Origin: an uncultured Acidimicrobiaceae bacterium
Lineage (GTDB): Bacteria > Actinomycetota > Acidimicrobiia > Acidimicrobiales > UBA10347
Reading direction: 5' to 3'
DNA: 64,000 nt
NCBI GenBank assembly: GCA_905182135.1
Contig: CAJJAG010000006.1
Location: 186,001-250,000 of the forward strand
Shown here: one piece after another, positions 14,627 to 16,218 of the stretch
Layout: the number at the start of each line of letters is the position of its first letter
Numbering within the stretch: position 1 is the stretch's first letter
Translations under genes and position numbers: made by a program
The notes under the pieces: model-generated
Told to the model about the DNA's origin: nothing
Seen by the model: only the letters and a program-made list of their open reading frames with translations
Databases searched by the model: none

Positions 14627-14669
14627 CCATCACTAACCTCATATCGATGCACCGTTGGGGCGAATACTG

Positions 14670-15251
14670 ATGAGTCGCTTCCGGCTAGACGCTGGCGACC
14701 TACTCGCGATCGCTATCGGCGGCGTGCTCGGCGCTAGTGCGCGTTGGGGCATCACGTTTATATCGACCGACGCCACCACCGGCGATTGGTTTGTCTCTGC
14801 CCCAAACACCTCGCTCACCGCCGGGACGACCATCACCGGATCCGAGTCGGTCGGTGCGGGGCACGCGATCGCATCAGCCAGCGGAATCCCAGTCGACACA
14901 TTGACCGTGAACCTTGTGGGTTGCCTTCTTCTCGGTGCGTTGACCTTATTGCTCATCCGGTCGACCACGACTTCCCGTCGCTTGCTCATCGGCGCTGCCA
15001 CTGGTTTCTGCGGCAGCCTGACCACCTTCTCTGCCTTTGCCGTGGAGGTCGCTTGGCTACTACGGGCTCAACCTGTGTTCGCAAGCAGGCCAGTCGGCGA
15101 GAACGTCCGATTCGACCGCGACGTGCCCGGCTTGGCGCTTTATGTGGTGCTCAGCATCGCCGGCGGAGCAGTCGCCTTTGCAGTCGGCCGCATCCTCGCT
15201 GACCGCTTTGTGGGTTCTGCGCCAAACCCCACAATTGGAGAGCCAGCGTGA
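14670..15251 (+). CDS. fluC: Fluoride efflux channel subunit FluC (CrcB), copy 1
   Basis: Small membrane protein forming half of a Fluc-type fluoride channel. About 193 aa with four predicted helices and a longer than usual periplasmic/loop insertion after helix 1. Conserved segments are GGVLGASARWGI, the pore helix LTVNLVGCLLLG, and the phenylalanine-box region GFCGSLTTFSAF. ATG at 14670 preferred over an upstream TTG at 14655. The second subunit starts 4 nt before its stop (GTGA overlap), as expected for heterodimeric FluC pairs. I saw no convincing fluoride riboswitch upstream. Confidence 0.9.
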   Translation: MSRFRLDAGDLLAIAIGGVLGASARWGITFISTDATTGDWFVSAPNTSLTAGTTITGSESVGAGHAIASASGIPVDTLTVNLVGCLLLGALTLLLIRSTTTSRRLLIGAATGFCGSLTTFSAFAVEVAWLLRAQPVFASRPVGENVRFDRDVPGLALYVVLSIAGGAVAFAVGRILADRFVGSAPNPTIGEPA

Positions 15252-15592
15252 CAGCACTCGCCTTTGTAGTGGTGGCAGCGGTGTTCACGCTGATGCGAGC
15301 CGTTCTCACCTCAGGGCAACCTGTTGACGAGATTCCGTGGCGTACTTTTACGGTGAACATCAGCGGCGCGTTCCTGCTTGGAATCGTCGTCGCCTCTACG
15401 TGGTGGAACAATCCCGTCGTGGCCACCACTGCTGGTCTCGGGTCGCTCACGACCTTCTCCACGGTTGCCGCCGAAGCTGCTTCTCTGCTCGATAATGGCT
15501 GTAAAGGCCGTGCAATGGCCTACGTTGGAATAACTGTGGTTGCCGGCATTGCCGCGGCCTGGTTCGGACTCAGTATCGGAGAAATGTCATGA
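15248..15592 (+). CDS. fluC: Fluoride efflux channel subunit FluC (CrcB), copy 2
   Basis: Second Fluc channel subunit of 114 aa, starting with GTG inside the stop of the first. It keeps FTVNISGAFLLG and AGLGSLTTFSTV, the pore Asn and Phe-box region, within four helices. Paired subunits form the antiparallel dimeric channel in the cytoplasmic membrane. Its TGA overlaps the ATG of the following DsbA-like gene (ATGA at 15589-15592), so three genes form one coupled unit. Confidence 0.9.
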   Translation: MTALAFVVVAAVFTLMRAVLTSGQPVDEIPWRTFTVNISGAFLLGIVVASTWWNNPVVATTAGLGSLTTFSTVAAEAASLLDNGCKGRAMAYVGITVVAGIAAAWFGLSIGEMS

Positions 15593-16218
15593 CCGCACCA
15601 GTTGTACTCGAAGTATTCAGTGACTTTCTTTGACCGTGGTGCCATGTAGGCACCGTGCGTGTCGATGAGCTGAAGCGCCGCATGGGCGACACAATCGAGG
15701 TGCAGTGGAAGAGCTTTCTGCTTCGCACCGAACCCAAGGTCACAACGTTGGAGAAGTTCACGGCCTACACCGAGTCATGGCAACGGCCCGCCGATATGGA
15801 ACCGTCAGCGAAATTCACCACCCCGTGGGCATCAGGCGCTACCCCACCGTCGAGTTCGTTCCCGGCACAAATGGCGTGGAAGGCAAGCGCTCACTTCGGC
15901 GACCAAGCCCAACAGCGATATCACCACGCTCTGCTCGATGCGTACTTCGTGCAGAATCGTGACATCAGCAGCGGGCCCGAGCTCGCACAGATCGCCCACG
16001 AATGCGATATCGACAAAGATGCCTTCGTCGAGTTGTTCACCGAACAGCACGATTCGCTGCGTGAAATGGTCGCTGCCGAACACAACGACGCCATCGGCCG
16101 AGGCATCACTGGAGTTCCAAGCGTCATCGTCAACAACAACGACTTCCCAATTCAAGGCGCTCAAGATGTCGAGAACTATGAGCGGCTAATCGCCCGAGTC
16201 ATCGAACGAGGTCTCTAA
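15589..16218 (+). CDS. DsbA/FrnE-family thiol oxidoreductase with in-frame UGA at the CxxC site: candidate selenoprotein
   Basis: Reading from the ATG at 15589 gives VLEVFSDFL, then TGA at 15631-15633, then PWCHVG and about 195 further codons with no stop. DsbA/FrnE relatives read SDFVCPWCYIG there, so the UGA sits exactly on the first catalytic Cys (residue 15) and Cys18 is kept. The rest is intact and family-like, including GITGVPSVIVNN (the cis-Pro loop) and a total length near 209 aa. The ATG overlaps the fluC stop, giving a coupled start. Calling a GTG at 15655 instead would yield a protein without its active site. Sec insertion is inferred; a nonsense mutation is the alternative. Confidence 0.72.
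15635..15692 (+). promoter_or_regulatory. Candidate SECIS-like stem-loops after the UGA
   Basis: Immediately after the UGA a 9-bp stem (15635-15643 with 15649-15657, seven Watson-Crick and two G-U pairs) closes an ATGTA loop. A second hairpin pairs GTGTCG (15659-15664) with CGACAC (15687-15692) around an inner GC-TGAA-GC. Bacterial SECIS elements lie within the coding region just after UGA. The first loop is closer and the second slightly further than the classical spacing, so this is suggestive only. Confidence 0.35.

Follow-up and report, generated by a model that had tools for sequence, protein, structure and literature searches.

In the window, the 64,000-nucleotide stretch of DNA from an uncultured Acidimicrobiaceae bacterium that we analysed, a gene with an in-frame UGA lies directly behind two fluC genes on the plus strand. 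The first of these, fluC1 (14655–15251, start uncertain; Pfam CRCB, E 1.6e-17), belongs to the CrcB/fluoride channel family, as does fluC2 (15248–15592; Pfam CRCB, E 4.9e-18). The UGA-containing gene, which we read as encoding a DsbA/FrnE-like selenoprotein of 209 residues with a UPWC active site, extends from 15589 to 16218. Its ATG overlaps the fluC2 stop TGA at 15590–15592 (ATGA), and a GGAG at 15578–15581, 7 nt before the ATG, is the likely ribosome-binding site. From this start the frame reads MTAPVVLEVFSDFL-UGA-PWCHVG, with the TGA at 15631–15633 as codon 15. The following CCG TGG TGC (15634–15642) supplies PWC, the rest of the UxxC motif with the resolving Cys18, and 194 codons downstream of the UGA are open up to the TAA at 16216–16218. 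Pfam DSBA covers residues 7–201 of the read-through protein (E 1.3e-25); the PF01323 domain and a Sec codon at the first UxxC position are thus both present in this gene.

Mechanical ORF calling starts the gene at GTG 15655, and the active site is lost. The initial annotation had predicted this loss, and had placed the UGA at the first Cys of a CPWC motif with Cys18 intact and the proper start upstream at ATG 15589; the sequence bears out each of these points. Since gene callers for which UGA is nothing but a stop cut the gene and drop its catalytic residue, this enzyme, which is spread across the order, is likely misannotated.

Two fluC genes in tandem immediately precede the Sec gene in the window (14655–15592) and at L018, L019, L032, L036 and L055, in three families, and a pyridoxamine-oxidase-like gene lies divergently upstream of the pair. 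The initial annotation had described the selenoprotein gene as coupled to fluC. This holds in the window and in families f1, f26 and f52, where fluC adjoins the Sec gene, whereas in the other carrier families no fluC was detected next to it and the neighbours differ. The adjacency in three families and the ATGA overlap in the window could indicate a selenoprotein whose job is tied specifically to fluoride export through FluC rather than to general disulfide chemistry. However, in most other families no fluC could be detected beside the Sec gene, and a candidate fluoride riboswitch in the window was dropped, as the Rfam matches there are tRNAs only. We consider such a dedicated job unlikely; the linkage is real but confined to three families, so it does not define the group and is unfit as a basis for function.

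Conservation of the UGA codon among homologues

Among 59 relatives searched, 10 genomes (the window's own included) have the gene, and every copy contains a single internal TGA. When 397 genomes of the same order were searched with a profile, 59 full-length copies and one split copy were recovered, again all with one TGA, and a search of the phylum added one more orthologue (L095) and five more distant copies in family f86, all carrying TGA. Every fetched sequence was checked at the codon aligned to residue 15 of the window protein. It is TGA in 65/65 sequences of the two UGA-bearing clades, none of which has another in-frame stop within the family match, and TGC or TGT in all 15 homologues without a stop. 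With 65/65 agreeing, a chance occurrence of the TGA can be dismissed. The close orthologues with the UGA (n=60, 59 of them besides the window copy) span about ten family-level groups. In the alignment, S11, D12, L14, P16, W17 and C18 are invariant.

The exchange of UGA for Cys codons, which the initial annotation had proposed to look for, appears only between groups: orthologues have TGA throughout, and the nearest Cys homologues have TGC or TGT in the same column. Profile scores split sharply: UGA copies from the order reach E 1e-70 or better, Cys homologues about 1e-32 or worse. Among the 397 genomes sampled, the orthologous group yielded no Cys version. A protein search of genome contigs gave only two weak matches, both Cys, and plasmid records gave only weak DsbA matches, the best at 30% identity. 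A maximum-likelihood tree separates all 65 Sec rows from the rest by a single branch with good support; as long branches meet there, according to a program warning, this leaves a single origin of Sec unproved.

Downstream of the UGA, the window copy compared with three relatives of the same genus gives dN of 0.32–0.44 against dS of 1.3–2.3, the latter near saturation. A low dN relative to dS is what a translated part under purifying selection would show.

The more distant DsbA-like genes of family f86 (L100–L104, genus g264) carry the UGA at the same codon (UPWCYIGQVAAD) and have their own hairpin downstream. This group may be a separate Sec lineage.

The hairpin downstream of the UGA

With the RNA numbered from the U of the UGA as position 1, a hairpin common to the 60 close orthologues has its stem at 16–23/29–36 and its loop at 24–28, of the form NGUNC, in which G25, U26 and C28 are invariant. 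In the window this putative SECIS hairpin occupies 15646–15666 of the plus strand, with the 5' arm at 15646–15653, the loop (CGUGC) at 15654–15658 and the 3' arm at 15659–15666. Within the first 48 nt, covariation is strongest for 24-27, which spans the loop, and for 21-31 and 22-30 in the stem. Positions 24, 27 and 21 (the last in the Gly21 codon) are all third codon positions, so the covarying changes are largely synonymous.

The covariation score is 0.345, compared with a shuffled mean of 0.176 (none of 500 shuffles reaches the observed value) and a maximum of 0.106 when the register is slid. As a null, we also recoded the sequences, drawing synonymous codons according to the usage of each. 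Paired cells amount to 92.5% in the observed sequences vs 64.5% (sd 1.5) after recoding, and the hairpin energy is -8.9 vs -1.4 (sd 0.26) kcal/mol. Pairing and energy far beyond this null show selection on the RNA as well as on the protein. In this register the Cys homologues reach 57% paired cells, and only one of them has the GU in the loop.

The wobble pair 24/27 (15654 and 15657 in the window) shows the strongest covariation, with the combinations CG, AU, GU, GC and UA within the NGUNC loop. Its two positions are too close to each other for an ordinary hairpin pair. Meanwhile, the GUN codon that supplies the loop GU encodes Val23, which is present in 64/65 Sec forms; 11/13 Cys forms have Arg there. 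The RNA of the hairpin seems to dictate this residue.

The published bSECIS model describes a loop of 3–9 nt with a G in the first two loop positions, 16–37 nt from the UGA, and a stem of 4–16 bp with a minimum free energy of at most -7.5 kcal/mol (PMC13188914). The family hairpin fits this model, with a 5-nt loop, a spacing of 20 nt, an 8-bp stem and a median of -9.3 kcal/mol; 41/60 orthologues lie at or below -7.5 kcal/mol. The window's own copy is weaker than most of its relatives. It has an A18-G34 mismatch and, at -5.1 kcal/mol, fails the published energy criterion; it keeps the loop, the spacing and the five inner pairs. Its minimum-energy fold is a competing hairpin (8–13 with 19–24; loop AUGUA) about 10 nt from the UGA. 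The fold that the initial annotation had suggested seeking after the UGA is therefore conserved and covarying in the family, but weak in the window itself.

Selenocysteine machinery and the proposed decoding of the UGA

The initial annotation had noted that Sec incorporation needs Sel machinery, which is not encoded in the window. The host assembly (2.36 Mb, 8 contigs, rated 60% complete) contains most of it: selB scores above the curated cut-off, selA, named by sequence and position without family scoring, lies directly upstream with a 4-base overlap, and a tRNA-Sec scores 69.7 bits, with the anticodon tca (UCA) according to ARAGORN. A selD gene was not found in this about 60% complete assembly. 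It is present in 15/17 genomes checked that carry the Sec gene, among them every one of the 12 with a completeness of 90% or more, so its absence here is best ascribed to the incomplete assembly. In every carrier where it was found (15 relatives), the selD copy has one internal TGA, and SelD itself is probably a selenoprotein throughout the group of carriers. Within the order sample, tRNA-Sec occurs in 55/60 carriers vs 180/337 non-carriers (Fisher p 3e-9, uncorrected for relatedness); each of the five carriers that lack it has a completeness below 90%.

The host genome also encodes a molybdopterin oxidoreductase (L106, G000:C3:125638-126915, minus strand) whose gene contains a single internal TGA, within the motif NRT-U-HAPSVVGL; a GGUCU-loop hairpin comes after it. 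The NRT-U-HAP context is the classic Sec site of formate dehydrogenase. L106 is a formate dehydrogenase-type selenoprotein, the second UGA protein of the host genome.

The window gene itself was put forward in the initial annotation as a candidate DsbA-like selenoprotein, and the conserved TGA, the presence of selB and tRNA-Sec and the conserved, covarying SECIS-like hairpin all support this. We infer that Sec is incorporated, and put the probability that the gene is a real selenoprotein of the DsbA-like (UxxC) kind at about 0.95. Three other ways of reading the codon were weighed against it. That the UGA is a real stop, with a functional product starting at GTG 15655 and lacking the active site, would agree with the gene caller's ORF. 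However, protein-level conservation extends over the UPWC motif and the codons that precede the UGA, presence of the gene tracks tRNA-Sec, and the hairpin is conserved at synonymous sites, which together make a genuine stop highly unlikely. An equally slim chance attaches to decoding as another amino acid, by general reassignment or near-cognate readthrough. Readthrough would also keep the frame open, and we found nothing that positively supports it; UGA still terminates genes here, including fluC2 and several orthologues of the Sec gene, and the genome has selA, selB, tRNA-Sec and a second UGA protein at a classic Sec site. Least probable of all is a nonsense mutation, pseudogene or sequencing error: TGC or TGT needs a single substitution to become TGA and an isolated case would look alike, but 60/60 close orthologues, drawn from about ten family-level groups, share the TGA and are free of other in-frame stops, the part behind the UGA is under purifying selection, and a TGA common to independent genomes rejects both pseudogene and sequencing error, as the initial annotation had expected from a copy without further decay.

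On the preferred selenoprotein reading, SelB and Sec-tRNA(UCA) would decode the UGA at 15631 as selenocysteine, directed by the hairpin at 15646–15666.

Fold, predicted function and known relatives

An AlphaFold model with Cys in place of Sec gives a confident DsbA fold (mean pLDDT 94.2, pTM 0.90). With its first strand already at residues 5–11, the protein can hold no signal peptide and is therefore probably cytoplasmic. In the PDB, the closest match by sequence is FrnE of Deinococcus radiodurans (E 7e-23); among the matches by fold are FrnE, SCO1869, YjbH, kappa-class GST and DsbM, a cytosolic disulfide reductase. FrnE is reported to be a cytoplasmic disulfide reductase/isomerase, the loss of which causes sensitivity to diamide and cadmium (PMC8945050). 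Because the fold is FrnE/DsbM-like without a signal peptide, we predict by analogy, and with moderate confidence, that the window protein acts as a cytosolic selenol-disulfide reductase or isomerase.

The product would thus be a cytoplasmic FrnE/DsbM-like enzyme of the thioredoxin fold with the active site Sec15-Pro-Trp-Cys18. If it works as CxxC enzymes of the same fold do, the Sec15 selenolate may attack a disulfide or another oxidised substrate, yielding a mixed selenenylsulfide that Cys18 would resolve, and a cellular thiol system may then reduce the Sec15-Cys18 bond again.

FrnE (DR_0659 of D. radiodurans; PDB 5cnw/5cp1) resembles the window protein in sequence, fold (TM 0.79), CPWC-type site and predicted cytoplasmic location, but has Cys in place of Sec. 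The D. radiodurans protein is also about 50 residues longer and ends in a C-terminal CxxxxC (PMC8945050), which the 209-residue window protein lacks. This regeneration motif is found in many FrnE proteins and missing from some (PMC8945050), so it does not strictly define the subfamily. Judged by sequence and model, the window protein would belong to the FrnE subfamily, with a predicted cytoplasmic DsbA fold, a CPWC-type motif and FrnE as its closest match. SCO1869 (3gl5), a related cytoplasmic protein with Cys rather than Sec, is among the best fold matches. DsbM of Pseudomonas aeruginosa (5hfg/5hfi) is likewise cytosolic and has the same fold (TM about 0.73), but it shares about 18% identity and was crystallised with glutathione.

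DsbA-like UxxC selenoproteins (COG2761/PF01323) were first reported from Sargasso Sea data in 2005 (PMC1088965). They appear with counts of 41 and 45 in the table of a 2016 survey (PMC5029168), and DsbA-like form 1 selenoproteins are listed in a 2026 review (PMC13188914). The window protein is like form 1 in its PF01323 domain, its Sec at the first position of UxxC, the SECIS-like hairpin just downstream and the widespread Cys homologues. The window clade, by contrast, apparently contains only Sec forms, in at least 59 genomes of one order, and its NGUNC-loop hairpin has a clear covariation record. It is a tentative and rather doubtful idea that this FrnE-like clade stands apart from the DsbA-like selenoproteins already published, serves a dedicated substrate on which Cys fails and, in three families, is linked to the tandem fluC pair. 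The type of selenoprotein, then, has been known since 2005 but is little studied, and the lineage in the window is apparently Sec-only. The SECIS of this clade is unusually well documented by covariation, including the two synonymous wobble sites 24 and 27, and since no Cys version was found in the clade, it offers a good test of what Sec does beyond Cys.
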